Shown one piece after another: positions 3,970 through 26,057 of a DNA stretch of 30,443 nucleotides. The notes below the pieces were generated by a model that worked only from the letters and a program-made list of their open reading frames with translations, was not told where the DNA came from and searched no databases. Source of the DNA: a virus; the IMG/VR virus record IMGVR_UViG_3300008113_000400, positions 1 through 30,443 of that record. One strand, 5' to 3'. The translations under genes were made by a program, and so were the position numbers. Every line of letters begins with the position of its first letter. Positions within the stretch are counted from its first letter, which is position 1.

Positions 3970-6900
3970 TTATCCTGGACAACATGGACCAGCACCACCA
4001 CAATCAAATCCAACTTGTGGATAACCTGCAATTACCTTACCATTACTATCTGTTTCCCAATATTGACATCCGTCAGATATTGGTTTAGAAATCAGTAAAC
4101 AATCCGTTGTTGTATCAACAATATACAAATCAACAGTTGACCATTGACCTGTGAATAGATAACTGTACGGATATGTTCCTCTATACCTTGTCGCAGAACC
4201 TAAACCACTTTGTACTTGGAAACAGTTTGTTGCCGCAGAACCACTATCCGCCAACATTCTACCACCATAACAGTTTCCTGATAACGTGTAGGCAAAACTA
4301 TTATTTCTACATGATGTGCAACTCGCAAAGTTTGTTCCAATATCCGTGTACCCAGGACCACTTCCCGTTGGTGTTGACGATGTTATTGTAAAACAATTTC
4401 CTTCACCATCATAATACACAAATCCCGTCTGTATTGGGAAACTTAATCTTCTAACCAATAAGTTAGTGATTGGTGGTTTAGTACCACAACAATATGTTCC
4501 ATCAACTAAAGCATAAAATTCTGAAACAGGTTCAGTTGAACTTGGAGTTACCGTAGCGGTTGGGGTTGGGGTTTTAGTTGGTGTATAAGTTGGAGTAACC
4601 GATGGTGTCACAGTGTTAGTTGGGGTTACTGTTGGAGTAACGCTATTTGTTGGTGTTACAGTCGGAGTTATCGTGTTTGTCGGAGTGTATGTTGGGGTAA
4701 CCGTTGGTGACGGTGAGATACTTGGTGTTGGTGGAACCGCATTTAAACACTCAATGTTGTAAACAATTAATAATTCAACAATAATTTCTTGTTCTGTTAT
4801 TGCACTGCCAGGATTGGCTTTGATTGTAATCTGATTTGTAAGTGGGTTTATAGTAACACTAACAATTCCCGAAATACTTTCCAACATGGATTCAATCGTG
4901 TTATACCAAAGGTTATCACTTGGTACATCAACCAAAGTATATCCTGTGTAGAATGAATTTGTTAAAACAGTATTTTGTGGTTGAACTTGAACTTTAGCAG
5001 TGAAAATCGCCTCGGTCAACACACAGTCAGTATAACCTGAAGTTAAGTCATAAAAACCATCAACAAGAATCTGATTTATTCCACACTTGGTTGGGGATAC
5101 AATGTTGAACAAATCCGAACCCATTGTATAACTTTGGACAGAGACATAAACCTTGTCACAATCGATTGTTGCCTCACGAGCCAATGAACAACCATTAGAA
5201 TCTTCAACAATTAATGTATATGTCCCACCACTCAAACCATTTACGTTAATATCTTGTGGATTACCTGAGACGTTGTCAGACCAATAAAAATTAAACGGAG
5301 GAACCCCCGATGAAATAAAGGCTGTGATTGTACCCTGACTTCCCGTACCACAAGAAGTTGAATACAAAGAGAATTCAACAGGTGGTGTAGAACCAACACT
5401 AAACGCTTTAGTAATAGAACACCCACTACCATCTGTGACAGTCATAGTGTGTTGTCCCACAGAAACATTATTAAATGTTACCACATCTAAATTACTGTCG
5501 ACGATATTTTCAATACCATCAATAGAATATGTTAATGGTAACTCAAAACCACTACCAACAGCAACATCAACTTGTCCATAAGGATTATTACAAGTTGAGT
5601 CTGTAACCCCCACTGTAAAGTCAAACTTATTGTCAGTTAAGATGGTAACTTCTTGTGTATACAAACATCCACCATTGTCTTCAACAAATACGGTGTAGTT
5701 TCCACCTGAAAGATTTGAGAACACTTCTTGTGTTTGATTACCTGTGACAATATCACTATTACCGTCAGAGTCGACCAAAGTAATTGTGTAAGGTGAAACA
5801 CCCCCAACAATATTAATTGTTATTTGTCCGTCATTGACAGAACAATAAGAATTTTGTGTTGTTACATTAACAGAGGTTATTCCATATGAACTGTTAATAG
5901 TTGTTGAGGCAACAAACTTACAAAGAGCAGCATCGGTTACTTGAATCTGATACTGTCCGTTACTTAAATTAGATAATGTGAATGTATCAGAATAACTTAT
6001 CTCAACCGTTCCTGTAGATGCAGAATAATAATACGGAACCGTTCCACCCGTGATTAAAAATGTTAGACTTCCGTTGTTGTTAAAACATGTAGGATTAACA
6101 GCTGTTATCTCCCCCAATCCAACAGGTTCCAAATTAACAATCTCGGCGGTTTCAGTTTTCTTACATCCGTAGAAATCCGTAACCTCAACCGAATATACAC
6201 CAGCAGTTAAACCTGTTATACTTGATTCCAAACTTCCATTACTCCACAAATACGTGAAAGGTGGTGTACCCGTTTGTCCCGTAACATATAGTTTTCCTAT
6301 GTTACCCGTTCCACAAGAAGCGTTTGGAACAATATACAAACCAAAATCTAACGATGAAGAATCCTCAACAATAAACGTTTGACTTGTTCCTATTCCTCCC
6401 CCACCATCAGTTGCAACAACATAATATGTTCCCGCAGACATGGATGTGAAAATAGCCTGTCCTGTGTTGGTATCAACTCGGTCAATGATTTGGTCATCCA
6501 AATCATATAAAGTGTATGTTACAACAGAGAATGATGAGTCAGAAGTTGCAGTAACAGAACCATTGTCCAATCCACAGGTTGTCGGACTTACACCCAATAT
6601 TCTAAGACACAAACATCCCGATACGGTTATGTTAATGTAAAACTCATTATTAATTGGAACAGTAGAGTCATTAGCTCTTACATTGTAAACCCCTGCAGGT
6701 AAACCCGTTTTGTAATTACCCAACCCTAACTCAGGGTCGAACCAATCAAAAGTGTATGGTGGTATTCCACCACTGGCATCAATCAATACCGCACCTAAAC
6801 CAGTCTCACAAGCCCCCGTTACATTTAAGAAATAATCAAACACACCACCGTTACCAAATGGGGGTGATGAAGACGATACAGATGGAGTTACAGTGGGGGT

Positions 6901-7584
6901 TGGTGTGATTGTTGGTGTTACTGTAGGAGTCGGAGTTACGGTGGGGGTTGGTGTAGGTGAAGGACTTGGGCAAGATGGGCAGTAACCCGAATCATCACAT
7001 CCCGCAGTTTGCACATATGAAAATGCCGGAGCCGTATCAATGTATACTGTATCACCGGTAAATCCATCAGTTGCAGTTGCACAACCTGTATAAGTACCTA
7101 AAGTTCCGGCATAATTGATGTAATAAACATTACCATCAACATAGTCATTTGACATTTCAACATCACCTCGTCTGAAACTAAATGTTGAATTGTCACAACA
7201 GTCTGTAAAAGTATAAACACAATCCGTTAAATTAGAATCAGTACACGCCCCACAGGCACCTTGTGATGTATCATTTGTAAACGGAACTACGAATGTTTGT
7301 GCCGGTGTATCGAAAGAATCCGTTCCTATGTAAGCATAACACAAACCATCTCCACTATAAATTACCGATGATATTGCAAGTTGGAATGCTGCAGTATTAA
7401 TCTCAAATGTTTTATAAACGGGGTCAGGGTCAGATAGTCCAAAACAACAACTTACAAAGTATTTGTTTGCGTAAGTTGGACATGGGTAGTTATTCTCACA
7501 CTGAGTACAGTTATCGTAAGAAGCACTATATTCAAGTTGCTGGTGGTATAAAACAACCCGCACCATGTTCATATTCACAAGCAT
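3970..7584 (-). CDS. Giant modular tail adhesin with SprB-like repeats
   Basis: The reading frame encodes 1204 residues. Order of parts: two Cys-rich units (about 42-114 and 121-205); a Pro/Thr linker (203-242); seven tandem repeats of 75-80 residues (about 250-808); a domain also found at the end of the 991-aa protein (863-947); a second Pro/Thr linker (951-1018); and a Cys-rich C-terminal region beginning with a fourth Cys-rich unit (1024-1092) and ending CCPG. The repeats carry the GG..PY.Y.WS.G / L..G.Y.V.V.D..GC pattern of SprB repeats, known from the Flavobacterium gliding adhesin. No signal peptide is seen, as expected for a virion part assembled in the cytoplasm. The listed start is uncertain: the frame overlaps the 99-aa ORF by 53 bases, and the two may be one protein separated by a frameshift. 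Receptor binding is inferred. Confidence 0.85.
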   Translation of the reverse strand: MLVNMNMVRVVLYHQQLEYSASYDNCTQCENNYPCPTYANKYFVSCCFGLSDPDPVYKTFEINTAAFQLAISSVIYSGDGLCYAYIGTDSFDTPAQTFVVPFTNDTSQGACGACTDSNLTDCVYTFTDCCDNSTFSFRRGDVEMSNDYVDGNVYYINYAGTLGTYTGCATATDGFTGDTVYIDTAPAFSYVQTAGCDDSGYCPSCPSPSPTPTPTVTPTPTVTPTITPTPTVTPSVSSSSPPFGNGGVFDYFLNVTGACETGLGAVLIDASGGIPPYTFDWFDPELGLGNYKTGLPAGVYNVRANDSTVPINNEFYINITVSGCLCLRILGVSPTTCGLDNGSVTATSDSSFSVVTYTLYDLDDQIIDRVDTNTGQAIFTSMSAGTYYVVATDGGGGIGTSQTFIVEDSSSLDFGLYIVPNASCGTGNIGKLYVTGQTGTPPFTYLWSNGSLESSITGLTAGVYSVEVTDFYGCKKTETAEIVNLEPVGLGEITAVNPTCFNNNGSLTFLITGGTVPYYYSASTGTVEISYSDTFTLSNLSNGQYQIQVTDAALCKFVASTTINSSYGITSVNVTTQNSYCSVNDGQITINIVGGVSPYTITLVDSDGNSDIVTGNQTQEVFSNLSGGNYTVFVEDNGGCLYTQEVTILTDNKFDFTVGVTDSTCNNPYGQVDVAVGSGFELPLTYSIDGIENIVDSNLDVVTFNNVSVGQHTMTVTDGSGCSITKAFSVGSTPPVEFSLYSTSCGTGSQGTITAFISSGVPPFNFYWSDNVSGNPQDINVNGLSGGTYTLIVEDSNGCSLAREATIDCDKVYVSVQSYTMGSDLFNIVSPTKCGINQILVDGFYDLTSGYTDCVLTEAIFTAKVQVQPQNTVLTNSFYTGYTLVDVPSDNLWYNTIESMLESISGIVSVTINPLTNQITIKANPGSAITEQEIIVELLIVYNIECLNAVPPTPSISPSPTVTPTYTPTNTITPTVTPTNSVTPTVTPTNTVTPSVTPTYTPTKTPTPTATVTPSSTEPVSEFYALVDGTYCCGTKPPITNLLVRRLSFPIQTGFVYYDGEGNCFTITSSTPTGSGPGYTDIGTNFASCTSCRNNSFAYTLSGNCYGGRMLADSGSAATNCFQVQSGLGSATRYRGTYPYSYLFTGQWSTVDLYIVDTTTDCLLISKPISDGCQYWETDSNGKVIAGYPQVGFDCGGAGPCCPG
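4531..4734 (-). repeat. Second Pro/Thr linker-coding repeat in the adhesin
   Basis: About 68 residues of TPTNTVTPTVTPTN-type sequence connect the domain shared with the 991-aa protein to the Cys-rich C-terminal region. The DNA repeat period is short and resembles the linkers at 3084-3278 and 6859-6978. Confidence 0.75.
5161..6837 (-). repeat. Seven tandem SprB-like domains
   Basis: Seven diverged units of 75-80 residues lie end to end within the adhesin. Each has an early Cys followed by G.(I/V/L), then a central (T/S)PP(Y/F)(T/N)(Y/F).W or related motif, then L(S/T)(A/G)G.Y.V.V.D..GC. Units 3, 5 and 7 show it best: GTPPFTYLWSNG, GGVSPYTITLVD and SGVPPFNFYWSD. The units are diverged at the DNA level, so this is an old array. 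The cysteines at matching positions suggest one disulphide or metal pair per unit. Confidence 0.8.
6859..6978 (-). repeat. First Pro/Thr linker-coding repeat in the adhesin
   Basis: About 40 residues of [17 protein letters not shown] type, running into a Ser-rich stretch, separate the N-terminal Cys-rich units from the SprB-like array. It is probably a flexible stalk. Confidence 0.75.
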
Positions 7585-7831
7585 TACAATCAGTACCTAA
7601 TCCACCAGAATAACTCGTAAAACTATTTGATAGTGTATAACCATACACGGCACCACTGTGAGTTGTAAAAGCCTCCCAACACAATGTACCATAGGTACCG
7701 TCAGTGGTGGTATAAGTTTGACCAGCAGTAAATGTACTATTTGAAGTACCATTAACCGTTGGTGTACATGGTTGTATAACAACCGAAGAGTTACTACAAC
7801 ATCTAAGATAGAGATAATTACTACAAGCCAT
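7532..7831 (-). CDS. Cys-rich tail protein or N-terminal piece of the adhesin
   Basis: This 99-residue frame starts at ATG 7829-7831, which overlaps the stop of the 991-aa gene as TAATG. It begins MACSNYLYLRCC and ends at a TGA at 7532-7534. It matches the Cys-rich units of the 1204-aa adhesin: an aromatic strand ending in CC, a central G.YGTLCW and a C..C near the end. Its last 53 bases overlap the 1204-aa frame, and a +1 shift near the TTTT run at about 7548-7551 would join the two. It is therefore either a small separate protein translated by coupling from the 991-aa gene, or the true N-terminus of the adhesin cut off by a programmed or erroneous frameshift. The coding frame itself is well supported; its independence is not. 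Confidence 0.65.
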   Translation of the reverse strand: MACSNYLYLRCCSNSSVVIQPCTPTVNGTSNSTFTAGQTYTTTDGTYGTLCWEAFTTHSGAVYGYTLSNSFTSYSGGLGTDCNACEYEHGAGCFIPPAT

Positions 7832-10806
7832 TATTCAAAACAATTCACACTTAAATTTATACCTACGGAAAGTTGAACTTGTTCTAAAGTATTCTCACTA
7901 ACCGACCTCAGGTTTGTTATAGTTAATTTATTACCATTCAATGTGTAAGTATACCCATACTGATAAACTTTGTATAAATTATTTATCAAAGTTGTTCTCC
8001 ATAAGTAATCTGATGGTGCGTCACTGATTCCATAACCACTATAAAAGAATTCATTTATAATTGTTTGGTTACCAATTGTTAATGTTAAATACCATTGAGA
8101 GTTAACAGAATTCTGAGAACATACCTCAGCATTTAAATCATTTTGAGTGTAAAAATTATTAACTCGGTTGGCTAAAATACCTGTGAAGTTTGAAACCGTG
8201 GTATCACCGTTCATCCAAGGATAAATAAAGAACTCCGTATAACTTGTGTTACAATCATAATCAAATATATTTGAAATGATAAAACATGGTTCCGCAGGAA
8301 CTGGTACAATCTGACATCCTCTTTGTCTACGGTATACAAACTTTTGTTTGTGGAATATTGAGTTTTCCAATCTAACCCCTGTCATCCATAATGTTGTTGC
8401 AGGAACCATCTGTTCAATGAGTTTCATCCAAAATGGACCCAACGCATCAACATATTCAATTAACTTTTGATATGTGTATTTGTTATTTGGTAAACCAACT
8501 GTTTGTTCAGATTGAATGTATTTCCAAAACACACTTTGAAGTGTTGGATATCCACCGGTTTTACCATCAGTAATGTACAAACGGTTACGAGTGTTAATCA
8601 TGTTCTGCCAAAAAGTTTGGTAGAATTCAAAGAATGTTTTTTTCTGAGGTTCAGGGTCAATAACCGTATCATCAATACCTCCCGGTGTTGGGAAGTTCGC
8701 AGTATATCCTGATTCAGGAATTGGGTAGTTATAATTTCTTGACTGGTCCCAAACATCATATGCAAGTCCTTGTCCGACATTCAAGAAAATGTCAACGTTC
8801 TTAACGTTTAATACCAAACTTTCATTATCGGTGAAATAATAGGCATTGTATCCTCCCTCGGTAGATACTCTTAACTTATCGTCAGTTGCAACCCATGACT
8901 TTTGGTTATCAGGAACTCTTCTTAATTTATATCCGTCCATCATATATGGGAAATCAGAATATCTTTGAAGATAGATTCCACCATAAGTGAACGGTTCTAA
9001 TGAAACTTGGTTATCTAAGTTTTGTCCGGTGTATGTTTGGTATGTTGGGACAAATTGGTCAGGACTTCTGTGTTGTGGTGTTGATTGATACCAACCAGCA
9101 CCTTCTTGGAAGAACACACCATTTGAACCCGTTGTTGCCGGTGACTTTGGTAAACCAATTTCATCAACAGGATAATCGGTACGTCTGATATTAACCGATT
9201 GGAAGTCGGATGTTGTTGTATATGCGGTAAACTGTTGTCCTCTAATTGAATAGGTAACTGCACCATTTAATGTCGGAGTTTCAGTTGCGTAGGTTCCTCC
9301 TGAAAGACTAGCCCATTGAGTGTTGAAATTCTCCATATTAATTCTTTGGTCCGCCAAATAAATAAATTCGTTATAATCAATCAAAGCATCAGGTGCTCCG
9401 ATTAATCTTAATAAGAATTCAACAGACCTTCTAGTTCCTTTACTCTTAAACAAGTAAGCGGAGTTAAGAATTAAATTTCTATAAAACTGATAGTTTAGTT
9501 CAGTTGGCGTTTGTGACCTAGCATAACCAGGATATTCAGATGTTGTTGTCCCAAAAACACTATCCAAGAAGTTCTCATTCGTAATCGGTGAGAAATTATT
9601 TGTCCACCCCAATGTTTGGGACAAATTAAATAAAAGTTGTGACGGAATATCATTACCAGGAACATAGTCCACACTATTCATCCAAGCTAATGAATCAATG
9701 AATTGTTTTATTTGGTCAAAACTTCTACCATATATCTGAAGAACCTTTTCAACTCTGTGGTCAATAGTATCAAATTCTTTAATTGAATCTGTCACCAAAA
9801 ATCTTGATACAAGATTTGTTTTATAAGTGTCTAAACTTTCAGCAGTGTCAGCAAGTTTGGTTAGGTAGTTGTCAAATCTACCTGATATGATATCTAAATT
9901 CCAAACACCATCTTTTGGCCAAGTAACTTGAACATATCCTGTGTAGAATTGTCCAGCATCATTTTGTAAAGGAACTTGAAAGTTTGCTGTGTATTCAGGA
10001 GAAATTTGACGATTTAATAAAAACTTTTCAACCTCATCAAAATCTTCAGCTAAAACCTTATCAACAATATAATCATTTGGTCTAACAATAAAATTGTCTA
10101 ATGTTGTTGAGTTTCCACTAAACGGATTACCTTGAACAATAAAAGTTAGAGTCCCAACATCCAAAGTTTGTGATGGTGTAAAACCAACAACTCTATATTC
10201 AACCCCCAAGTAAGATAAGGCATAATCCAAATAAGTTTTAGTTAAATCCCTATACTCAGAAGTTACAATCTCTCTAAACATCATGTTAGTTGTAGCACTA
10301 ACCGAGAATTCAATTTGGAATGGATTGTATACTCTTGAGACGTTAACGTCAAAAGTTGTTTCATCCTCTACAGAGTCATATACAATGTTTGTCGCAGTTT
10401 GACCTGTTGTATAGTTGGACATAGTTCTTCTAATATCCAAACCAGCAGGGAAATAATTAATAATTTTATTAATTGAAACACTAAATCTTTTCGCTAACGA
10501 ACCATACAATGAAAAGTTTAAAACTTGTGATACATCATAGTTTGGATAAACCCTAAATTGTGATTGTAAAATTCTTCTACTTTGGTCAACAGAACTAACA
10601 TCTAAATCTTCTAAACTAATTGGTTCTGAAAATGTACCAATAGAAAAAGTTCTGTTAACTTTTTCAGTAACAGAAGTTGTAAAATCAAAAACAGCATTAG
10701 TTAACCCTCCACCCTCAACAACTTGAAAACCTACAATGTTGTCAAAGGTTCCTAAACCACTACCTGGTGTTGGGGGGTAAAAAAACTTTGTTGAGTTGAT
10801 AGCCAT
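7831..10806 (-). CDS. Large tail/baseplate structural protein
   Basis: This 991-residue protein starts at ATG 10804-10806, overlapping the previous stop as TAATG, and its own stop overlaps the next start in the same way. Around residues 454-471 the segment KSKGTRRSVEFLLRLIGA resembles the K.KGT..al..lL.l.G motif of P2 gpI-type tail proteins, so this may be the component that links baseplate to fibres. That resemblance is my pattern reading only. The last 86 residues (906-991, with FFYSGYGISDAPSDYLW) form a domain that recurs in the 1204-aa adhesin just downstream. No membrane segments are seen. Its position between baseplate genes and adhesins fits a baseplate-periphery role. Confidence 0.75.
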   Translation of the reverse strand: MAINSTKFFYPPTPGSGLGTFDNIVGFQVVEGGGLTNAVFDFTTSVTEKVNRTFSIGTFSEPISLEDLDVSSVDQSRRILQSQFRVYPNYDVSQVLNFSLYGSLAKRFSVSINKIINYFPAGLDIRRTMSNYTTGQTATNIVYDSVEDETTFDVNVSRVYNPFQIEFSVSATTNMMFREIVTSEYRDLTKTYLDYALSYLGVEYRVVGFTPSQTLDVGTLTFIVQGNPFSGNSTTLDNFIVRPNDYIVDKVLAEDFDEVEKFLLNRQISPEYTANFQVPLQNDAGQFYTGYVQVTWPKDGVWNLDIISGRFDNYLTKLADTAESLDTYKTNLVSRFLVTDSIKEFDTIDHRVEKVLQIYGRSFDQIKQFIDSLAWMNSVDYVPGNDIPSQLLFNLSQTLGWTNNFSPITNENFLDSVFGTTTSEYPGYARSQTPTELNYQFYRNLILNSAYLFKSKGTRRSVEFLLRLIGAPDALIDYNEFIYLADQRINMENFNTQWASLSGGTYATETPTLNGAVTYSIRGQQFTAYTTTSDFQSVNIRRTDYPVDEIGLPKSPATTGSNGVFFQEGAGWYQSTPQHRSPDQFVPTYQTYTGQNLDNQVSLEPFTYGGIYLQRYSDFPYMMDGYKLRRVPDNQKSWVATDDKLRVSTEGGYNAYYFTDNESLVLNVKNVDIFLNVGQGLAYDVWDQSRNYNYPIPESGYTANFPTPGGIDDTVIDPEPQKKTFFEFYQTFWQNMINTRNRLYITDGKTGGYPTLQSVFWKYIQSEQTVGLPNNKYTYQKLIEYVDALGPFWMKLIEQMVPATTLWMTGVRLENSIFHKQKFVYRRQRGCQIVPVPAEPCFIISNIFDYDCNTSYTEFFIYPWMNGDTTVSNFTGILANRVNNFYTQNDLNAEVCSQNSVNSQWYLTLTIGNQTIINEFFYSGYGISDAPSDYLWRTTLINNLYKVYQYGYTYTLNGNKLTITNLRSVSENTLEQVQLSVGINLSVNCFE

Positions 10807-12835: not shown

Positions 12836-13644
12836 TATGGGTTAACATATTCATACCATTTTATGGGTTCAGTAGTACCAACCCTATTGAATGTTATTGT
12901 ATCATAAACATTATATTTCTGTGACGGATAATTTAAATTAACCTGATAATAAAAATTAAATAAATTGTTCGGAGAATATGAATTAGACGCTTGGATTGAT
13001 TGAGGTCTATTAATCATTCTTGTAAATGTACCGGTTTTAGCGTTCCAAAACTTACAAGACATATAAAATCTATTAACATCTATGTATTCTCTTGAATACA
13101 ACCAATAAATAAAGAAACCATTTGTATCTCCAACAAAATCTAAATTATACTTCGGTTTGTTAATATCCACCAAAGCACCTTGCATACTTGCCGGCATCTT
13201 TAAACCTTGAGTGGTTGGTAATATAATAGTTAAATAATTTTTTTGTGTGGCTTCTGATGGTGAATCATAAAAATCCAACTTGAAGAAACTTTTCTTAAAA
13301 TTATTACGGAAGTAATACACTTCATCAGTTGTAAATCCCTCATTTCTATAGTCCATTGTCCACTCAGTTTCTGATGTTAAATTACCACCTGAGTAAAAAT
13401 AAAATTCATAATTAACGTCAGTCCTTACTTTTAAATCATTCACATCTGTTGATGTGTAACCTGAGTGTGAAAATCTAATGGTTTCAAAGTCAAAACCTTT
13501 ACCAGCAACTTCAGACATTATTTCCGCTTCAATCTCACGAATTTCGTTTTCCGTATCCAACAAACTCCAATTAAATTGCACAGGTATTACAAGACCTTTG
13601 TCCTGTAAACCCAATCTTGTTATTTGAACTTTATTCACAGTCAT
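12835..13644 (-). CDS. Late structural protein, unknown family
   Basis: This 269-residue protein starts at ATG 13642-13644 (MTVNKVQITRLGLQDKGLVI), inside the end of the 563-aa gene (14-base overlap). It is rich in aromatic residues (Tyr, Phe, Trp), typical of beta-structured baseplate proteins, and has no signal peptide or membrane helix. Both ends overlap neighbouring genes, so it is translated as part of a coupled structural group. I do not recognise the family. Confidence 0.7.
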   Translation of the reverse strand: MTVNKVQITRLGLQDKGLVIPVQFNWSLLDTENEIREIEAEIMSEVAGKGFDFETIRFSHSGYTSTDVNDLKVRTDVNYEFYFYSGGNLTSETEWTMDYRNEGFTTDEVYYFRNNFKKSFFKLDFYDSPSEATQKNYLTIILPTTQGLKMPASMQGALVDINKPKYNLDFVGDTNGFFIYWLYSREYIDVNRFYMSCKFWNAKTGTFTRMINRPQSIQASNSYSPNNLFNFYYQVNLNYPSQKYNVYDTITFNRVGTTEPIKWYEYVNP

Positions 13645-15322
13645 CTATTGCCGGTTGTGTTGAAATGTTTAATCCTCCAAGGATATCTTGATAATTAGAA
13701 CCTTCAGGTATTAATCTAAATACATAGTCTCGGTATGGGTAATGAGAACGATTCAAATAAGGATAGTTAACACCCCTATCTAAATTATCAAATTCACCAT
13801 ATAAATAAGGTTCTCTCCATCTAAACTCTTCATCTATTTCAGAATAAAATGAATACCCCGGAATGTTTTCAGAATTGGCGGCAGGTGCAGTTTCAACATA
13901 ATCTGAAAATACTCTAATCGTTAATGGAATATGTGGTACATAGTAATAACCCAAAGCGTTTGGAGTTGGTGTTGATTCTGTTTTAAAAATGTCTTGGTTG
14001 AATTTAATCTTATGGATTAAAGGTGATATCACTCTTTCAACTTGTTCGTAGTCATTCCATTCACAAAAATCACCCTCTAATAAATCACCAGCACTTAACA
14101 CACGATTATAATAAAAGGTCTCAGTTACCCCACTTGTTTTAGTGTAACTATTAACAGGAATATTAGTGAACGAATATTGATTGTTATCAGACCACCAAGA
14201 ACTACTTTCTTTAGTTAGATTAAAACCCCAACCTTTTTTTAATCCAACACCATTAAATGATTTATTGAAATATCCACTATAACCTTTATTAACGACAGAT
14301 AAGAATATTTCACCAACAGGACGATTTCTATTATCTGTTACACCACTTAAGATTAAATCTTTTTTTAATGTAACGTCATAAGTGTTTGACGATGTTTTAG
14401 TTGATATTCTCGTTAAATTATTTGGTGTAATTGAACTAAATTCTAATTTCTTTTCATTGTTAAACGGGTTTAATTCAAAACCTGTTTTTGTTACATCAAC
14501 ATCATTTTCATTAAATAAAATTCTGTTTTTTCTAACATAATACTTTGACCTAGTTTCTAAGTTGGATGGATTGGAAATTCTTTTGAATGTACCCATCCTA
14601 CCATTAAAAAATGTATTACCGGTATAACCAGGATTTATAATATTAAAAACAAAATCAGAACTACCATATCTGTCGTTACCTAATGATAACACTTCAAATA
14701 TAGTATCACCGTCATAATCAAATGATAACTCAACAGATTCAAAAGGTGATAATCCATGAGACATTAAACATTGAAAAGTTAGTATATTAAACCCACCTTG
14801 ACTTGAACTTGATAAGATAAACGGTATTCCATCCTCAGCACTCCATTGTATTGTCTGACCTGAATAGGTTGCCTGCATTACGACAGCACCATCATTTACC
14901 GCAGGATATGTAAGGTAATAAGACCAGTTATATGTGTAGGCACTTTCAGGAGAATAATCAAAATGATAATCAGTAATACTAGGTCTAAAAAAATCAAACT
15001 CATAATATTGTGGATACCCTCTCCAAATAGAACTAACCGATGATTGTTCAGGATTTACATAATACAAGTTATTCAAGAACGGGATGTATTCTGTTGTACC
15101 TGTTAAGGTATTGTCATACAAATATTGTAATTTAAAAGTTGGTCTGAAAACTTCACAAGTCTGACGTTCATCGTCATACAATTGTGCCAAGTTAAGAGAC
15201 GTATTTCTAACAAACTGAGTTAACTCTTCTTGAGTCTGATTTAACCCAACATTAATTTGTTGGTCAATTGATGGTGCAGATTTAAACGCCAGTCTTGAAG
15301 GTATTATTGTATAATCACTCAT
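13631..15322 (-). CDS. Late baseplate/tail structural protein, unknown family
   Basis: I chose the ATG at 15320-15322 (MSDYTIIPSRLAFKSAP), giving 563 residues. A GTG one codon upstream is the alternative start. Either start lies inside the end of the 1741-aa gene, so translation is coupled. The protein is rich in Tyr, Phe and Asn and has no signal peptide or hydrophobic segment. In T4 the genes after gp6 and gp7 encode gp8 and other wedge parts. By order alone this could be a wedge component, but I see no sequence signature that supports a specific T4 name. Confidence 0.72.
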   Translation of the reverse strand: MSDYTIIPSRLAFKSAPSIDQQINVGLNQTQEELTQFVRNTSLNLAQLYDDERQTCEVFRPTFKLQYLYDNTLTGTTEYIPFLNNLYYVNPEQSSVSSIWRGYPQYYEFDFFRPSITDYHFDYSPESAYTYNWSYYLTYPAVNDGAVVMQATYSGQTIQWSAEDGIPFILSSSSQGGFNILTFQCLMSHGLSPFESVELSFDYDGDTIFEVLSLGNDRYGSSDFVFNIINPGYTGNTFFNGRMGTFKRISNPSNLETRSKYYVRKNRILFNENDVDVTKTGFELNPFNNEKKLEFSSITPNNLTRISTKTSSNTYDVTLKKDLILSGVTDNRNRPVGEIFLSVVNKGYSGYFNKSFNGVGLKKGWGFNLTKESSSWWSDNNQYSFTNIPVNSYTKTSGVTETFYYNRVLSAGDLLEGDFCEWNDYEQVERVISPLIHKIKFNQDIFKTESTPTPNALGYYYVPHIPLTIRVFSDYVETAPAANSENIPGYSFYSEIDEEFRWREPYLYGEFDNLDRGVNYPYLNRSHYPYRDYVFRLIPEGSNYQDILGGLNISTQPAIDDCE

Positions 15323-18300
15323 CACTTAAATACTTTTGTTTAAATTTATCAAGTGCCGTTAATCCTGTTTTTAATCCAAAGTAGAAATGGTATGGGGCAC
15401 CAACTAAAAATTTATTTTTCCAATTACCAACGTTAGGTGTAATTACACCTTGGTTGTCTTCCATGTAAATATATCCACGAGCTCTTCTATCATCTCCTTG
15501 TGTATTTGAACCAATAAAGTATGTTGGTGAAACAACGTTAGTTCTATCCAAAGATTGATATTTTTTGGAGAAAATATCATTTGTTTCTGTTGCCCAATTA
15601 TTTTCTTCACTACCAAAAATAGTAGGGTTAACTAATCTTGGGAATAGATACGTAACCAATGGTTTTCTTGGCGGATTTAACTCCCATTGATAAAATGGTA
15701 CTTCTTGTGATTTAATACCATATGAATATTGAATTGCTGAACTTGCTGGTGATGGTCTAAAATCAATCTTACCAGGTGTTAAGTAGTCTTTAACTTGTAA
15801 GTCTTCAGTTGTTGATGAGAAGAATATACCCATAACAGGTCCACTAACATTGTTACCAAGTAACTGAACCGGGTCATCTGTACCACCATAAGATTCATAA
15901 GCATCCGCAGAAAACTTAATGACACCTTGTTCTGAATTAATTGATAATAATTGAGCAGCGTCACCATCAATTCTTCTTTCCTCTCTTGAGAAAAGAATGT
16001 TAATAATATTATTATTGGTGAAGACACTTATCGCACCAATTCCTGAGGTTCTTTGTGATAATAATTGTATAAATAAATTATTTGTAATTCTTGAAATAAC
16101 AAAGAACGTTAAGATATCTGACGTGTCCCCATAACTACTAGGATTTAGTTTATTCATAACAAATCCTTTATAAGTTGGGTCTAAAGAAATTTCAGAATAG
16201 ATATCACTCTTAGGTCCCAAATTCATAATTGTTGTTGGAAATAACAAATTCAAATCGTTTATTTTACCCGCATTAGGTGTTTGTCTTTTACCTATAAAAC
16301 CTTTACTACTATTTGGATTATAAGGACTACTTCTCATATAATAGTTGTTACTATCATCATTAAAGAAAACAAACTCCTTACAATAGATTGTCTTTTTAAC
16401 CTCGTTGTTACCGTCATAAATTGACCTAACTTGGATAGGTGGTGTGTACATAGTTCCATTTATCCAATTGTTAGTAAACGTTTGTGAAACCACTCCCCTA
16501 CACAAAGCATAAAAGAATCTATATCTAATACCGTATTCACCAAAACCCTGTAAATCCTTTGCTAAACCAACCAATGGTTTTGTCATGAATCTATAACATC
16601 CGTTGTAAACAATATCATTGTTTTGACAATCCGTTTTTACTCCAAATGTTTTTCCATCACCACTGTAACAATCAATACTAACCATGTTTGAACATGAGAA
16701 TGTTTCTAAGACATTTAAATTACCCGGTATGTCACTTGTATCAGATGTTACAATATCAGAACCAGTTCCATACGCAATTGTTGAGAAATCTTCTTGGTAT
16801 TGGGTAGTTATCTCATATATCGTAAATCCTAAATTTTGTTGTAATACAGGTACAATACCATTCCACTTAGTACCTTCTAAAAAGTCAGAAGACGGAAGTC
16901 TATCCGTTCTCATAACATTTAAAGTCTTATCAGATATGTTCAGTGGTGTTGTTTGGAATTGTGGTAATAATGAAACCGAAACGTAATTACTTTCCACTAA
17001 ACTTGGCTTTCTTCCTGATTGTCCAAAAGTACCACCTTGAACATCCAACCAATAAAAATCCAAACCTGATACATCTTCTAATGAATCATATTTACCATCA
17101 TCTATTTGAGAATCAAAAAATCCATTAACATTTTTAGATGTGGTAAGTGTTACACTACTATTACTTGGGTAGTTAAAATATTTGTTAACACCATAACTCT
17201 GTAATGTTCTGTTACCACTATTTTCAAAATTCTGCCAATTAGTGTTAGAATCTAAACCACTGTAATAACCAACATTAGAAGTAGTAAATGCTGAGTAAGT
17301 TGTTCCAGGTTCAAAAAATTTACTTGGGTAAAAATAATTTGATTGAATAGTGTGGTCTTGGACTGACATTCCTCCTGATGGAAGTTTTTGTATCGGTACA
17401 TTAATTCTTGAATTAATAGTAACCGTCACATCATCCTCACTTGCAAATCCTAATATTTTTCCAATACCATATTTGTTTTGATAAAGTGGTGAATATGGGT
17501 CAACACCTCTTTGTAATATTAATATGTACTGATTTTCAAAACCTTCATATGTTGTTCTTGGTTGGTATGATGTACCGTACAAATCCCATGTAAGTCCTTG
17601 TTTTCTTGCATAACTAACCGAAACACTTGAATTTAATAATTTAAGGAATGAATTATATGTTGGTTGTAATTGACATGTTGCTCCAACAAATGATACAGTT
17701 CCATCACCGGAATCTAATGTTGGTAATGCACAAGCACAAACCTCCATGGTCTCACCAACCCATTCTTGAGCGGTTGTATCATATACGTTAGTTAGGTTAA
17801 CATATTGTGTAGTTCCATTACAAGCTTGATATGAGAAATATGCAAATAATTGACCAATAGTTGAGTCGTCACATTTTACAACATACTTTCTACAAGATGA
17901 ACACCCTGGTTGTGCAATAAGATTAAACGCAGCACTAACGGTAATTGCGGTAACCACTTGGTAATATTCAATGTCCGCAGGGAAATTATAGTTGTTTTGA
18001 GTTGACCCCGAACTTAATTGATATATCTGAGTTGATTCTGTTGTCTGTGAAGTTGCGTATTTGATAGTAATTGAACCAACACCTGGTTGTAATGTAGTAC
18101 CACTAATACCCGTTTCAGATTGTGTATTGGAACTAAACGTATAGTTCTTGTCCGTACTATTTTCAGGATTAACAAAAGATAATAGAGTACCCGCCTCAAA
18201 TGGTGATTGTGATAATACTGTTAGAGTGTTATCATAGTGTTTAACCGTGGCGTTAGATGGGTTATCAAAACTTACAGAAATTCTATTGAGACCATCAAAG

Positions 18301-20540
18301 TATTTCTTTCTACTATTAAATTGGTTAACTCTCTGAGCCATTGGTAATGATGTACCATAAGCAAAATACTTATCATTTTTAGCGTCAGGTAATCTTAATT
18401 CTGTTGATTCGGTAGATTTATACTGTCCCAATTTTTGAGACCTGACAATTCTTGAACCAACAGCCTCAGATAGCGCCAATGATTGTACTGCTCTATTATC
18501 TTCAGATGGTTGACCATCTTCATCCCCACCTTCAACATTTAAAAACTTGAGGTACCCTTCGGAAATGTTTTCATAATAAAGTGCAGGATTTGCCAATGGT
18601 GATAATAGTGAAGTACCTCCACCTTCAGAATCACCAGCAATCGTATCCCCTGGTTTACAATCACAACCTTGACACTCAGGGTATGTTAACATCGGTAAAT
18701 TAAATGCCCCAAATCTAAATCTTGTAATACTTCTAAACTTAACCGTAAATGTAATAGCCAATGAAGCTGCCAATGCACCTAATCCTAAGAATATCAAAGA
18801 TGGTGGTGGGAATATAAATGCCGCAACAAAGAATGCATAAGATAAAAACGATAACAATCCAATAAACGCAACTGTGATTGGAACCGCAAGAGTATTCCAC
18901 AAGAATGCTATGATGTGGTAAATAACAAGTAATGGTGGAAATACTAATTGGAATAGTTGGAATATTATTGAGAATAAGAAATACAATACATCAAAGTTCT
19001 TGACCGCGTCGTTTACAGGGAACTTGTTATTAACATTAATACATCCGTTATCATCAATATCTTTTACACCAATAAACTTACTTCTACCATCACCTCGTTT
19101 GTATTGGTCAATTAAACTTGAAACTGTGAATACCTTGTTGTATTCAAGTTCGTAGAAAGTATCAATACAATTAATAGCGTTGTATAGTTTTTCATTTTCA
19201 ATACTTGTTGTACTGGCATCGGTATATCCTGACCAATCAACACCAAAATAATATGAACTTTTTAAGTCTTTAAATAATAAAGGATTTGAATTGTAAATTG
19301 GGTCAATTGTTGATATCTGCCAACCATATTCTCTAATGTTTGGAACCAAGTAATATGGTCTTCTAATTTGTTCTGTAGAGTTTGGTGATTGTTGCCATTT
19401 AATTTTGAATCTGTACTTACCCTTTGTTGGAATACCTACTGATGGGTCATTAGAAAAGATTCGTGTACCATCTTCAGATGTTGTGATGTAATCCAAATTC
19501 ATTGGGACTTCCACAACCCACGTACCATCACCATCAATAACATTTCCCGAGTTTTCTATTCTATATTCCTCAAGAATTGGTCTACCCTCACTGTCTTGAT
19601 TAATTGTTTGTCTAACGGCAAGAATTTGACCGGGACCTGCAATGTTTGTACATAAACTACCCGTGTTATCTTTTGGCTTACAACCTCTACCTAATACACT
19701 TGGAGGTCCATCAGTTCTACTAGATGGTGCCCCGATTCTATACTCATCAGGACTTGAAAACATTGAACCCATGAAAATTGCCGTTGGTTCAATATCAATA
19801 TTGGCTTCTTCACGTAAATCAAAATCCACACGATTAACCTCGGCTTGACATAAACTTGGGTCCCCCCAAAATGGATTGACTTCAAAGGTCTTTGTTAATG
19901 AAACAATCTGTGGTAGACTCTCAAGGTTTGTAGATGTGTTAAACCTATCACCAGCAACTTGTGCTTCCGTCGCCCTACCCATTCTAATCAAGTCTTGAGG
20001 TGTTAGTGAGAACTCACCAATATCACTCAAGTCCAAGTCCATTACAATGGTTTGTTGTCCAAGTGGTACACCAAAAATCATGTAGTCACCACTCTCGTTA
20101 GTCTTAACAGTGTATTTGTAATACCTGTCATATACACTAACCAATGTTGGGTCTTTTAAAACCTCTTCTCTTGTTGGAAAAGTTCCAACCACGGCATGTT
20201 TTGTGTATGAAGGAACACTTGGTAATAAATTAAATCTTATACCATTGGTGTCTCTATCGTTTGGTTGTGTATATGGATAGACAGCAACAATCTCTTCATT
20301 TATTGCGTCTGTTTCCGTAATTGGGACAAATATTGAAACTTTAACATTTGGTATTCCCAATCCACCATTGGCAATCACACGACCAACAACTACACCGTAA
20401 TCGGCACAGTTTCGTGTGTAAACATCATTCTGTGAAATTTGTAATGAAAGGATTTCTAAAAACTCAAAATCCTGTTCAAGTTGAAATGAAATGTTCTTGT
20501 CTACACCAACGTCCGTTCTTATCCTATATGATTTTCCCAT
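15315..20540 (-). CDS. Very large baseplate/tail structural protein with hydrophobic segment
   Basis: This 1741-residue protein starts at ATG 20538-20540 (MGKSYRIRTDVGVDKN). Residues of about 48-170 resemble a carboxypeptidase-regulatory/prealbumin-like domain: YGVVVGRVIANGGLGIPNV early on, and TNESGDYMIFGVPLGQQTI at the end. Residues of about 517-600 are strikingly hydrophobic and could form three or four membrane helices. A compact Cys cluster, C..C.C at 623-628, follows. A second Cys-rich part (GCSSCRKYVVKC...CACA) lies in the middle third. In T4, gp7 (1032 residues) follows gp6, so by position this is a candidate gp7-like wedge protein, but it is far longer and I see no conserved gp7 motif. 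A TATTTAT motif lies 14 bases before the start. Confidence 0.75.
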   Translation of the reverse strand: MGKSYRIRTDVGVDKNISFQLEQDFEFLEILSLQISQNDVYTRNCADYGVVVGRVIANGGLGIPNVKVSIFVPITETDAINEEIVAVYPYTQPNDRDTNGIRFNLLPSVPSYTKHAVVGTFPTREEVLKDPTLVSVYDRYYKYTVKTNESGDYMIFGVPLGQQTIVMDLDLSDIGEFSLTPQDLIRMGRATEAQVAGDRFNTSTNLESLPQIVSLTKTFEVNPFWGDPSLCQAEVNRVDFDLREEANIDIEPTAIFMGSMFSSPDEYRIGAPSSRTDGPPSVLGRGCKPKDNTGSLCTNIAGPGQILAVRQTINQDSEGRPILEEYRIENSGNVIDGDGTWVVEVPMNLDYITTSEDGTRIFSNDPSVGIPTKGKYRFKIKWQQSPNSTEQIRRPYYLVPNIREYGWQISTIDPIYNSNPLLFKDLKSSYYFGVDWSGYTDASTTSIENEKLYNAINCIDTFYELEYNKVFTVSSLIDQYKRGDGRSKFIGVKDIDDNGCINVNNKFPVNDAVKNFDVLYFLFSIIFQLFQLVFPPLLVIYHIIAFLWNTLAVPITVAFIGLLSFLSYAFFVAAFIFPPPSLIFLGLGALAASLAITFTVKFRSITRFRFGAFNLPMLTYPECQGCDCKPGDTIAGDSEGGGTSLLSPLANPALYYENISEGYLKFLNVEGGDEDGQPSEDNRAVQSLALSEAVGSRIVRSQKLGQYKSTESTELRLPDAKNDKYFAYGTSLPMAQRVNQFNSRKKYFDGLNRISVSFDNPSNATVKHYDNTLTVLSQSPFEAGTLLSFVNPENSTDKNYTFSSNTQSETGISGTTLQPGVGSITIKYATSQTTESTQIYQLSSGSTQNNYNFPADIEYYQVVTAITVSAAFNLIAQPGCSSCRKYVVKCDDSTIGQLFAYFSYQACNGTTQYVNLTNVYDTTAQEWVGETMEVCACALPTLDSGDGTVSFVGATCQLQPTYNSFLKLLNSSVSVSYARKQGLTWDLYGTSYQPRTTYEGFENQYILILQRGVDPYSPLYQNKYGIGKILGFASEDDVTVTINSRINVPIQKLPSGGMSVQDHTIQSNYFYPSKFFEPGTTYSAFTTSNVGYYSGLDSNTNWQNFENSGNRTLQSYGVNKYFNYPSNSSVTLTTSKNVNGFFDSQIDDGKYDSLEDVSGLDFYWLDVQGGTFGQSGRKPSLVESNYVSVSLLPQFQTTPLNISDKTLNVMRTDRLPSSDFLEGTKWNGIVPVLQQNLGFTIYEITTQYQEDFSTIAYGTGSDIVTSDTSDIPGNLNVLETFSCSNMVSIDCYSGDGKTFGVKTDCQNNDIVYNGCYRFMTKPLVGLAKDLQGFGEYGIRYRFFYALCRGVVSQTFTNNWINGTMYTPPIQVRSIYDGNNEVKKTIYCKEFVFFNDDSNNYYMRSSPYNPNSSKGFIGKRQTPNAGKINDLNLLFPTTIMNLGPKSDIYSEISLDPTYKGFVMNKLNPSSYGDTSDILTFFVISRITNNLFIQLLSQRTSGIGAISVFTNNNIINILFSREERRIDGDAAQLLSINSEQGVIKFSADAYESYGGTDDPVQLLGNNVSGPVMGIFFSSTTEDLQVKDYLTPGKIDFRPSPASSAIQYSYGIKSQEVPFYQWELNPPRKPLVTYLFPRLVNPTIFGSEENNWATETNDIFSKKYQSLDRTNVVSPTYFIGSNTQGDDRRARGYIYMEDNQGVITPNVGNWKNKFLVGAPYHFYFGLKTGLTALDKFKQKYLSDE
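18741..18992 (-). other. Hydrophobic, membrane-like segment within the 1741-aa protein
   Basis: Residues of about 517-600 form a near-continuous hydrophobic stretch (for example VLYFLFSIIFQLFQLVFPPL, then FVAAFIFPPPSLIFLGLGAL), broken only by Pro and Asn turns. It reads like three or four transmembrane helices. Such a segment is not expected in the body of a soluble baseplate protein. Confidence 0.7.
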
Positions 20541-20636: not shown

Positions 20637-22475
20637 TTATGAAAAAGAAACATTTTGGAAGTTTCTAACTCTAACCTTAATATCCTTCTGAGGGTATCTA
20701 ACTTGATACACTTGGTTTGGTTGTGCAAACAAAGTATCATCAACAGGACGAATAATTTTAAGTTCAGGGTCTGAATATTGCATTGAAGTTTCCGCTGAAG
20801 AGTATTGTCCCCCCACCTTGTTATCAATCACAATATCTGCAACAGTTATTACACCATTTTGATTCTGTACAATACTTCTAAGTTCAGACAAATAAACGTT
20901 TTGACCTAACTGTCTAAATTGGGGGTCAAAGTACGTTGAGATTTTATTAACAATATCACTAATGATTTGTCCTGAGTTTTGTGTCGCATCCAACACAACA
21001 GAAATATCAATACCTAAGTCAATAACCTCAGCAGTTGTTACTTGGATGTAGTCGTTCATCATCCTGTAATTTGACAAATAATTCGCAACATTTTGTTTCA
21101 AAGTATTTGACACAATACTTGTTAATTTTCCTGAAGTATCATAAGACAACATAGATATAATAATCTTGTTGTTATTTTCTGTGATGGCAACTTTAGCCGG
21201 TGCACCGAACTCGGCTGGCATGTTTCTAAGTAATGAATCATAATCATTAACAGTAACTGCACGATTCTGAGCAGCAAAGTTAAATGTTACGTAGTTTCTT
21301 ACTTCTTCAACATTTGGTGAGTTTGCTCCACCAATAGCTGCCGTTACGTTTGTACATCTTAGTGAATTTATTACCGAACTATTAATTGTTTGTGAAGGAC
21401 CATTAACAAAGAATGATACCGTTCCAACTTGATTAATTACGTTGGTACCTAAGTTTGTTGCTAAACCACCACCAACTCTATATTGAACAAATAATGTTGC
21501 GTTTGATGTTAATGTTGAACCTAACGAGAAATTGTTAGTTATATTTTGTAATGTGATTGGAAACCCAAGATTTGTGAAAATATTAAGTTGGTCCTGAGCA
21601 GATGTTGTACCACCACCAAAAGTCATTTTACTAAAACCTTCAGGTGTAAATTCTGAAATAAAACGGTTGTTAGTTTGAATATATCTACCAACTTTTACAC
21701 CGGGTTGGTCTGATACTTTTGTTGGGTCTTCAATAAAGATTCTGTCCTCAGCTAAAGCATCCACTTCAAACCATCTATTTTCAACACCCAAGAATTCCGC
21801 AGATGTTGGTACGTTTGTATAATTGGTACCGTTCTTTAATAATACACTTGTAATACCTAATACGTTTTTATCAGGTAAAAACATTTCAAAGAATGGTTTA
21901 ACGTCGGCAGGAGTTATAACTCTTTTAAACACTTTAGTAATACCATTAACAACCAATTCTCGTTTTGTAATGGTATAGTTAACTAAATTACCAGCGGCAT
22001 CAAAGTTAGGTATTTTTAATCTGTTTGGGAAACCGGCATAATTGTATGGTGATGAAAAATCAATGTCATATTGGTTTTCAAAAACTATACCCGCTCCAAA
22101 TATCTGTGAACCTCTGTTTAAAATACCCAAGTACCTTTCATCTTCTTTGTCACCAAAAGCCGGTACTGTAATTGAGAAATCAACTAAAGATACTGAAGGT
22201 CTTTGTCCTGGTATTTTTAATCCATAAGTTCTGGCAATGTTGTAGATTGATGACCTTTGTTGTGCATATTGTAATACAGTTTCTTGGATACTTCTGTCAA
22301 TGTGGTAATGTAAATTGTCCGCAACCGCAGCGTTCAAATCCAAGAATACCGAGAAAACTGAAGCGTCGTTGAAATCTTGGATTAATTCAGGGTAGTAAGT
22401 ACGAACGTAGTTTTGTAACTCTACACGTATACCCTCATAATCTCTAACTGTGTATGAAATTCTATTGTTAGCCAT
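20637..22475 (-). CDS. Baseplate wedge protein, gp6/gpJ-like
   Basis: This 612-residue protein starts at ATG 22473-22475 (MANNRISYTVRDYEGIRVEL). T4 gp6 has about 660 residues, so the length fits. The N-terminal part (YPELIQDFNDASVFSVFLDL, then HIDRSIQETVLQYAQQRSSI) is typical of gp6/gpJ-type baseplate proteins, as is the later segment around NYVTFNFAAQNRAVTVNDYD, matching the common A.R.VT..DY motif. gp6 dimers form the ring that ties baseplate wedges together and works with gp25 and gp53. It starts 5 bases after the gp25-like gene, as expected for co-translated partners. Family assignment is strong; the exact T4 equivalence is by family and neighbour. Confidence 0.88.
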   Translation of the reverse strand: MANNRISYTVRDYEGIRVELQNYVRTYYPELIQDFNDASVFSVFLDLNAAVADNLHYHIDRSIQETVLQYAQQRSSIYNIARTYGLKIPGQRPSVSLVDFSITVPAFGDKEDERYLGILNRGSQIFGAGIVFENQYDIDFSSPYNYAGFPNRLKIPNFDAAGNLVNYTITKRELVVNGITKVFKRVITPADVKPFFEMFLPDKNVLGITSVLLKNGTNYTNVPTSAEFLGVENRWFEVDALAEDRIFIEDPTKVSDQPGVKVGRYIQTNNRFISEFTPEGFSKMTFGGGTTSAQDQLNIFTNLGFPITLQNITNNFSLGSTLTSNATLFVQYRVGGGLATNLGTNVINQVGTVSFFVNGPSQTINSSVINSLRCTNVTAAIGGANSPNVEEVRNYVTFNFAAQNRAVTVNDYDSLLRNMPAEFGAPAKVAITENNNKIIISMLSYDTSGKLTSIVSNTLKQNVANYLSNYRMMNDYIQVTTAEVIDLGIDISVVLDATQNSGQIISDIVNKISTYFDPQFRQLGQNVYLSELRSIVQNQNGVITVADIVIDNKVGGQYSSAETSMQYSDPELKIIRPVDDTLFAQPNQVYQVRYPQKDIKVRVRNFQNVSFS

Positions 22476-22480
22476 CTATG

Positions 22481-22951
22481 TTAAATATTGATAATGACGA
22501 AATCACTTTGAGCAAAGGCTAAATTATCTACGGTATAGTCAATCCTAACCTTTGCAGTATATTCGGAAGTACCTTTTCCCGGTACTCTATAAACGTAGTC
22601 TCTTGCAGTACCAGGAATTTGAGTACCTTTCGCCAATGGTACTTCTTCTAATGGGTCGGCCGGTTCTATGGTTATCTTATTTAATAACAAGTTTGGCATA
22701 AATCTTTGTACAGAATCCCTAATATCCGCTTCAATCGCATCAAATGTCAAACCGTCATATGGTTCAAAGATGTATTCATAAAGTCTTGTACCAAAATCAG
22801 GTAAAAAATATCTACTACCTTTTCTAGTCAATAATAGGTGAAGTAAATCACTTCTTATTTGTTGATACTGCGTTTCCGTAAGAGCCAAATAGTCTCCTTG
22901 AGTTGAGTCAACAAATGGAAATTCTAAACCATATGTAATTCCTTCTGCCAT
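22481..22951 (-). CDS. Baseplate wedge protein gp25-like (GPW/gp25 family)
   Basis: This 156-residue protein starts at ATG 22949-22951 (MAEGITYGLEFPF); T4 gp25 has 132 residues. Residues 40-65 carry the family signature: LLTRKGSRYFLPDFGTRLYE followed by YIFEP. A helical region (IEADIRDSVQRFMPN) and a strand (NKITIEP) follow, as in the lysozyme-like GPW/gp25 fold. The protein sits at the inner baseplate, next to the tail tube, and helps couple baseplate change to sheath contraction. The gene opens the late block: a terminator lies upstream, then a TATTTAT motif 5 bases before the start, and a weak AGGA sequence overlaps the ribosome-binding position. Confidence 0.92.
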   Translation of the reverse strand: MAEGITYGLEFPFVDSTQGDYLALTETQYQQIRSDLLHLLLTRKGSRYFLPDFGTRLYEYIFEPYDGLTFDAIEADIRDSVQRFMPNLLLNKITIEPADPLEEVPLAKGTQIPGTARDYVYRVPGKGTSEYTAKVRIDYTVDNLAFAQSDFVIINI

Positions 22952-24776: not shown

Positions 24777-26057
24777 TTAAAATAAATCGTTCAAAGTAAT
24801 TGACTTAGATTTTTTACTATAGTTGATACTACGCTTATTAAAGAAGTCAGTATGTTTTGTTGTTAGAATCTCATCATCAAACCATTCGGTAGTTTCCAAA
24901 ACTTTCGTATTCACAGTAAACACATCATCAATTCCAATAGAATTCAATGATAGGTTAAAACGATGTTTAATAAACTCCATAGTCTGTTCTTTAGTCAAAA
25001 AGTCCAAATCACCATTTTCAAAAATCCAATCAACAATTTCGGACTCAGCTTCAAAAGCTTCAACCGTAGAATTAATTAAATCTTGAACCAATTCTTCAGT
25101 CCACCAAGAAGGGTTTTCTTTCTTAATTAAATTAACTAAATCAAAACCAAATTCTGCGTGAATCTTCTCTTCTTTTGAAGTTGCTTCAACAGCATTACTA
25201 ATACCCTTCAACATGTTTTTGTGTTTGTTGAATGACATGATAACCAAGAATTGTGAGAATAGTGATACATTTTCTACAAACATAGAAAATAAAACCACAG
25301 ATTCAAAATAATCTTGATTCTCAATTGCCTTAGTATTTGAGATAGATTTCTCCAAGTACTTAATTCTTCTACGGATAGCAGGAACTTCTAAAAGATTTTC
25401 AAATTCTCGGTTAAGTCCCAATAATTGAATTAAATGTGAGTAAGCATCTGCGTGTCTTACTTCAGACTCTGCAAATGTTGCACCGACATTACCAATCTCA
25501 GGTTTAGGTAATTTTTTATAGATATCACCCCAAAATGTTTTAACCGCAACCTCAATTTGTGAAATCGCCAACATCGCTCTTTGTACCGCAGATTTTTCTT
25601 TTTCGTTCAAATGAACTTTAAAATCTTGGATATCAGATGTGAAATTAAACTCAGTGTGAACCCAATAAGAGTGACGAATAGCGTCAACATATTCCACCAA
25701 ATCAGGATACTCATAAGGTTTTAGATTAACTCTCTTTAAGAAGATATTTGGTCTGTGTTTAGAACGATAAATAATGTATTCTTTAGCCACATCATTTAAT
25801 CCATTGTCCATCAATTTATTCTCAACCATATCGTGAATTTCATCAACATGGGGAATACGATTTTTATCACTTCTGAAGATACTCTTCTTAGTTAATCTAG
25901 CAATTTTGTCAGCAATTTCTTCATCAACTTTGTTGATTCCTTTCATAGCCATCATAATCGCCCTTTTAATTTTCTCAGATTCAAATGGTACTTTATCACC
26001 ACTTCTTTTAATGACATATTGTGTGTCAATTTGAGTTAATTCAGTTGAATTGTCCAT
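24777..26057 (-). CDS. nrdB: Ribonucleotide reductase small subunit with N-terminal ATP-cone
   Basis: This 426-residue subunit carries the dimetal site that generates the catalytic radical. Residues of about 12-103 are an ATP-cone (YVIKRSGDKVPFESEKIKRA through VAKEYIIYRSKHRP), a domain usually found on NrdA. The ferritin-like part follows, with likely metal ligands Glu169, Glu199, His202, Glu262, Glu297 and His300. Tyr206 lies four residues after His202, matching the radical Tyr of E. coli NrdB, so a tyrosyl radical is possible. The C-terminal tail (SITLNDLF) should bind NrdA. ATP-cones on NrdB are known from Leeuwenhoekiella, where dATP drives inactive oligomers of the small subunit. Start: ATG preceded by AGGT. 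Confidence 0.93.
   Translation of the reverse strand: MDNSTELTQIDTQYVIKRSGDKVPFESEKIKRAIMMAMKGINKVDEEIADKIARLTKKSIFRSDKNRIPHVDEIHDMVENKLMDNGLNDVAKEYIIYRSKHRPNIFLKRVNLKPYEYPDLVEYVDAIRHSYWVHTEFNFTSDIQDFKVHLNEKEKSAVQRAMLAISQIEVAVKTFWGDIYKKLPKPEIGNVGATFAESEVRHADAYSHLIQLLGLNREFENLLEVPAIRRRIKYLEKSISNTKAIENQDYFESVVLFSMFVENVSLFSQFLVIMSFNKHKNMLKGISNAVEATSKEEKIHAEFGFDLVNLIKKENPSWWTEELVQDLINSTVEAFEAESEIVDWIFENGDLDFLTKEQTMEFIKHRFNLSLNSIGIDDVFTVNTKVLETTEWFDDEILTTKHTDFFNKRSINYSKKSKSITLNDLF

Follow-up and report, generated by a model that had tools for sequence, protein, structure and literature searches.

How contractile phages move their DNA over the inner membrane once the tail tube has arrived is not well understood, and searches for hydrophobic helices in tail proteins usually look to the tape measure. 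Both tape measure proteins and ejection proteins carry hydrophobic or transmembrane-like helices which are thought to meet the host membrane and to help the DNA cross the envelope. Examples come from the tape measure protein of lactococcal phage TP901-1 (PMC5099701) and from phage T5 (PMC10038345). The wedges of contractile tails contain a helical core bundle formed from gp6- and gp7-type proteins (PMC10457771, PMC6300606), and one of these, gp7 of phage T4 (L319:3061-6159), is annotated “C-terminus is predicted integral membrane domain”, the stretch in question being residues 886–904. Because T4 gp7 belongs to the virion and its structure has been solved (PDB entries), such a prediction alone is not proof of insertion. 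The stretch, VHPVGFGF.GITLLT..N.G, is nearly invariant in six gp7 proteins of 34–61% overall identity.

The window analyzed here, a viral contig of 30.4 kb, carries a T4-like baseplate cluster on its minus strand in the order gp25, gp6, a 1741-aa protein, and then proteins of 564, 269, 364, 302, and 991 aa (Table 1). The 1741-aa protein matches no Pfam or PHROGs family, and a PDB sequence search with it gave nothing credible. The position of its gene suggests a virion protein, which may be a peripheral part of the baseplate, and the labels “virion protein” and “baseplate protein” which the initial annotation attached to the product have gene position as their sole basis. As a candidate gp7 homologue it was rejected, since hhalign with both halves gave probabilities of 0.1–0.2 and E-values of 0.3–0.5, and the 564-aa neighbor has no similarity to gp7 or gp8. 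The 991-aa protein may be the true gp7/gpI counterpart; its FKSKGTRRSVEFLLRL region is hhalign's best segment against the equivalent T4 gp7 region, at a probability (0.4 percent) and E-value (0.16) that are far from significant.

Elsewhere on the minus strand, a 1204-aa protein (3970–7584) has five SprB repeats (PF13573, 1e-18), which suggest a Bacteroidota host. A class I ribonucleotide reductase small subunit (24777–26057; PF00268 5e-58) carries an N-terminal ATP-cone (PF03477 4e-22), an arrangement known from Bacteroidota. Positions 1–2400 encode collagen-like GSSGTSGTNGTSG repeats, and a WLGGWxNxTxYGxNDVVSYNNxTYVAV unit occurs twice there; the plus-strand ORFs at 115–1545, which are rich in proline, are antisense shadows of these sequences.

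Table 1. Features of the baseplate gene cluster and of the 1741-aa protein, in window positions.
Feature	Position	Strand	Basis or remark
1741-aa protein, uncharacterized family	15315..20540	-	ORF; within baseplate gene cluster
gp6-like baseplate wedge protein, upstream neighbor of the 1741-aa gene	20637..22475	-	phrog_219 5e-23; Baseplate_J
gp25-like baseplate wedge protein	22481..22951	-	phrog_261; PF04965
564-aa protein, gene next after the 1741-aa gene	13631..15325	-	conserved alongside the 1741-aa gene in group F and part of group M
991-aa protein, candidate wedge protein of gp7/gpI type (lead)	7831..10806	-	hhalign to T4 gp7
1741-aa protein, residues 1-516	18993..20540	-	most conserved part, beta-rich
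Hydrophobic segment, residues 517-600	18741..18992	-	composition, conservation, evolution
Predicted long helix, residues 518-576	18813..18989	-	AlphaFold2, 138 sequences
Predicted second helix, residues 582-600	18741..18797	-	AlphaFold2
PECQGCDC, residues 621-628 (Cys 623, 626, 628)	18657..18680	-	invariant Cys in freshwater group
Long variable region, residues 660-1741	15318..18563	-	conservation
WxNG-type motif FTNNWINGTMYTPP, residues 1355-1368	16437..16478	-	common to distant relatives

The initial annotation drew attention to about 84 hydrophobic residues followed by a C..C.C cluster in this protein, and both are present, the first as DVLYFLFSIIFQLFQLVFPPLLVIYHIIAFLWNTLAVPITVAFIGLLSFLSYAFFVAAFIFPPPSLIFLGLGALAASLAITFTV and the second as PECQGCDC. 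The mean Kyte-Doolittle hydropathy of the 84 residues is 1.82, compared with a mean of 0.54 and a top value of 1.21 for the maxima of 2000 shuffles of the same protein, and there is no D, E, K, or R from residue 518 to 600, an uncharged run of 83 residues. By an insertion score on a simplified Hessa-type scale, which is not a validated predictor, two helices are strong (559–577 at -2.3 and 582–600 at -2.0) and two are marginal (516–534 at 0.3 and 537–555 at 0.2). The 15 other window ORFs tested all score 1.5 or higher. The count of three or four membrane helices first proposed is uncertain, because the segment forms one helix of 59 residues and one of 19 in the predicted structure and relatives extend from a single amphipathic helix to more than 100 hydrophobic residues. 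The segment has one feature expected of an integral membrane protein, namely a helix with an uncharged hydrophobic span of at least 19 residues. Weak NCBIfam transporter matches, far under cutoff, reflect hydrophobic composition only.

The AlphaFold2 model built from 138 relatives (pLDDT 85, pTM 0.70) has a beta-rich N-terminal half followed by the two helices, with a block pLDDT of 86–97 over most of their length. A shallower model, built on 41 close relatives, reached a pLDDT of only 59 and has been superseded, but it shows the same helices at 516–576 and 581–600. Foldseek and VIA-align matched the N-terminal part to common beta sandwiches only and gave no informative match for the helices, where the absence of a fold match is no evidence of novelty. 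In the model, residues ~45–250 seem to resemble a carboxypeptidase-regulatory/transthyretin-like sandwich, with a VIA-align Z of about 6, in the range that the tool labels common, to carboxypeptidase D/N accessory domains over 79–86 residues (rmsd 2.1–2.6). The corresponding Pfam domain, PF13620, appears in the region of the TNxSGDY motif in 10 of the 41 close relatives and not in the window protein itself; all of these matches lie under the Pfam cutoff, and so common a sandwich is uninformative on the hydrophobic segment.

An IMG/VR scan with the 1741-aa protein returned at least 80 matches, and further scans extended these to at least ~310 loci in three groups: F, the close relatives (L001–L155), M (L159–L238), and R (L239–L318). 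Their habitats, assigned by reading metagenome numbers and bins, span freshwater, marine, and rumen/gut environments, with F mainly freshwater and many R members from rumen or gut. The order gp25, gp6, 1741-aa-type gene holds at nearly every locus in all groups. Many R relatives lie on contigs of 200–412 kb and encode proteins of 1900–2500 aa whose C-terminal regions are unlike that of the window protein. Distant relatives also occur on four bacterial MAG contigs, which are probably phage sequence. In one distant relative (L082:1849-4386), an 845-aa DnaB-like helicase ORF has an apparent intein-like insertion after a Walker A-like GVGK, ending HN before T.

Among cultured phages, tblastn with three different members found no relative of the 1741-aa protein. 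A search with gp6 matched Flavobacterium phage immuto, Microcystis phage Mel-JY01, and a 484-kb uncultured phage, and the gp6 proteins of immuto and Mel-JY01 are the nearest cultured ones (25–27% identity over 99% of gp6 length). The BFVD entry A0A8S5LA66 from Myoviridae sp. ctPuP5, a metagenomic name, shares the fold and aligns at 35% identity over 579 columns (E 2e-49); it is uncharacterized and no function is given. The moraphages, jumbo phages of aquatic Bacteroidota (PMC12619734), may belong to the same lineage as the phages described here; the word “transmembrane” does not occur in the main text of that paper.

To see how the segment behaves at the family level, one can follow it through the three groups. 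A helix scoring at or below 1 for insertion is present in 141 of 147 non-redundant relatives (58/58 in F, 27/29 in M, 56/60 in R), and in the distant groups the hydrophobic helix lies at the same place, right after the conserved beta-rich N-terminal region. Among 41 non-redundant close relatives both flanks show strong conservation, with IGIKEID..C...NKFPVNEGFRNFD before and LPMITYPDCQACxC after, and between them the segment itself retains hydrophobicity only. Its first ~37 residues are found in all but the most reduced members, while the remainder varies from 0 to more than 60 residues, so that the hydrophobic span runs from 36 to more than 100 residues within one group. This roughly threefold range is easy to accommodate in a membrane and hard in a tight core, and it therefore favors the membrane reading. 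Helical hydropathy periodicity at 100 degrees is detected in all three groups (permutation p 0.025, 0.0004, and 0.002), and corresponds to a helix that is hydrophobic except for a narrow stripe of residues that are small or polar (Gly, Asn, Ser, Thr, Gln). In R the helix is amphipathic more than plainly membrane-spanning, since many members have lysine in the stripe and there are ~3 charges on average; a few R relatives score as non-insertable.

Other motifs are distributed differently. The cysteines of PECQGCDC are invariant in the 41 close relatives, as P-[DE]-C-x-x-C-x-C, and the P.C..C.C pattern occurs in 58/58 F, 6/29 M, and 1/60 R relatives. The WxNG-type motif of the C-terminal part is found in 55/57 F, 58/59 R, and 9/25 M long proteins.

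A few relatives dispense with the segment. L083 (747 aa) has none and keeps the conserved start, a SWINGSLY motif, and a YFYFGL...KQKFF end resembling HFYFGLK...KQKYL in the window protein; L084 (728 aa) lacks it as well; and in L161, whose frame runs off the contig, the GLKDC region is joined directly to GNRKFKLCFHDAWLNG. Such absences mean that the segment is not universally required, and the fact that other conserved parts are kept without it indicates a removable module and argues against the core of a universal fold. The segment is also unusual within a genome: in a 165-kb relative only 3 of 57 ORFs of at least 300 aa score below 0, the other two being of 319 and 431 aa, so that among the very large proteins only this family's member carries such a segment. 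When a tape measure with membrane helices was sought in that relative, no very large ORF apart from this protein had any, with the tape measure gene itself assigned without confidence.

The most telling observations come from the evolution of the segment. In comparisons with six relatives of 83–85% identity, its dN/dS is 0.10–0.30, against 0.05–0.07 for residues 1–516 and 0.09–0.12 for the variable C-terminal part, although these ratios are rough, dS being saturated (above 2) in some comparisons. Each pair differs by 22–39 substitutions in the segment, of which at most one involves charge and nearly all fall within AVILMFWCYGTPS. Columns that are always hydrophobic have a mean identity of 0.64 in the segment vs. 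0.87 in the N-terminal region (p about 1e-7), the opposite of what is usual for a buried soluble core. To judge from these alignments, fast drift with retained hydrophobicity is the pattern of lipid-facing sequence and not of a packed core; hydrophobicity kept without sequence conservation is again as expected of an integral membrane protein. The membrane-like character first noticed in the letters is thus borne out by composition, predicted helicity, and above all evolution. What was to have spoken against it, a burial in a soluble fold that homologues conserve, is not seen; length and sequence vary widely, and some relatives lack the segment. A consistent topology by flank charge and span number, another property of integral membrane proteins, is not seen: the predicted spans number 1–5 and differ between relatives, and flank charges give no consistent positive-inside signal across them.

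Taken together, it seems somewhat more likely than not that the segment contacts a membrane at some stage. A more specific proposal, which we favor only tentatively, is that it may be a membrane-contacting helical module of a baseplate-module protein, released at infection as the baseplate opens on the host. Before that, in the intact particle, the protein's own beta domains and its neighbors would enclose the hydrophobic helices; upon opening of the baseplate on the cell the helices would be released and insert into a host membrane as one or more hairpins, with the N- and C-terminal domains remaining on the same side of the membrane and the tail being anchored or the bilayer loosened as a result. 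The small/polar stripe would be the face that packs on sister helices or lines a passage. It is also important to consider what counts against this explanation, namely the charges and non-insertable scores in R, the span count of 1–5, the lack of a constant topology, the absence from L083, L084, and L161, and the predicted unbroken helix of 59 residues, which would exceed what a bilayer needs. Moreover, we know of no baseplate wedge protein that inserts into a membrane, and to our knowledge a free virion cannot expose such a hydrophobic surface. A bolder extension, in which copies of the protein (six if stoichiometric with the wedges) would join their striped helices in the host inner membrane as a ring-shaped passage or anchor for the tail tube or DNA, is a long shot. 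If it were true, this very large group of uncultivated phages would open the membrane with the baseplate itself instead of with tape measure or ejection proteins.

That the helices never touch lipid, but form the hydrophobic heart of the wedge under the protein's own C-terminal domains or its neighbors, is the strongest of the alternatives, although we consider it somewhat unlikely. T4 gp7, with its predicted membrane domain in a solved virion protein, is a precedent, and the wedges of contractile tails do contain a helical core bundle of the gp6/gp7 type (PMC10457771, PMC6300606). The polar stripe would suit helix packing on partners, and rumen relatives tolerate charges there. However, the gp7 stretch is nearly invariant, as cores are, while in the segment identity collapses and hydrophobicity is kept; members of one group differ about threefold in span length, L083 and L161 manage without the segment, and profile comparison shows no gp7 homology.

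It is less likely still that the segment is an assembly anchor, inserted into the inner membrane during synthesis as a platform for building the baseplate, and then cleaved, left behind, or retained in the particle with its helices tucked in. Co-translational insertion typically acts on segments as hydrophobic as this one, and Type VI baseplates, which are kin of phage baseplates, are recruited to a membrane complex (PMC4604203). The span count, however, changes between relatives, which would put the C-terminal 1100 residues on opposite sides of the membrane, and flank charges have no constant positive-inside pattern. An artefact of frameshift, chimera, or low-complexity translation is refuted by the relatives, in which independent contigs share the same open frame and boundaries with dN/dS well under 1, and has next to no probability.

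With the reading as a membrane-contacting module preferred, the locus presents a hydrophobic module, both detachable and constant in position, in a gene adjacent to gp6, across a large and widespread set of uncultivated phages from freshwater, marine, and rumen habitats. We know of no described case of such a module among proteins encoded in the baseplate wedge cluster, and none was found in the titles and abstracts returned from an open literature library. Should the segment meet a membrane, the baseplate would be directly involved in breaching the envelope; should it never do so, it would be an unusual buried assembly. Natural relatives with and without the module make a direct comparison possible.

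Comparison with the described systems sets the family apart in several ways. Immuto and Mel-JY01 have a related gp6 but no member of the 1741-aa family, and the large proteins adjoining gp6 in these two and in the 484-kb phage show neither similarity nor a membrane-like segment. T4 gp7, with its Straboviridae relatives, is the closer parallel, as it is large, is encoded like the 1741-aa protein directly after gp6 in the wedge cluster, and has one predicted membrane-spanning stretch. That stretch is only 19–24 residues long, lies near the C-terminus, and is conserved in sequence, whereas the segment here reaches more than 100 residues, lies mid-protein, and is variable, and its sequence differs from VHPVGFGF.GITLLT. 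The N-terminal helix-turn-helix of T4 gp7 joins the (gp6)2-gp7 core bundle; the single-chain model of the 1741-aa protein starts with strands. Tape measure and ejection proteins reside in the tube or the head and exit with the DNA; the position of the 1741-aa gene speaks against such a location and against ejection, and what we have here is a beta-rich protein encoded in the wedge cluster.
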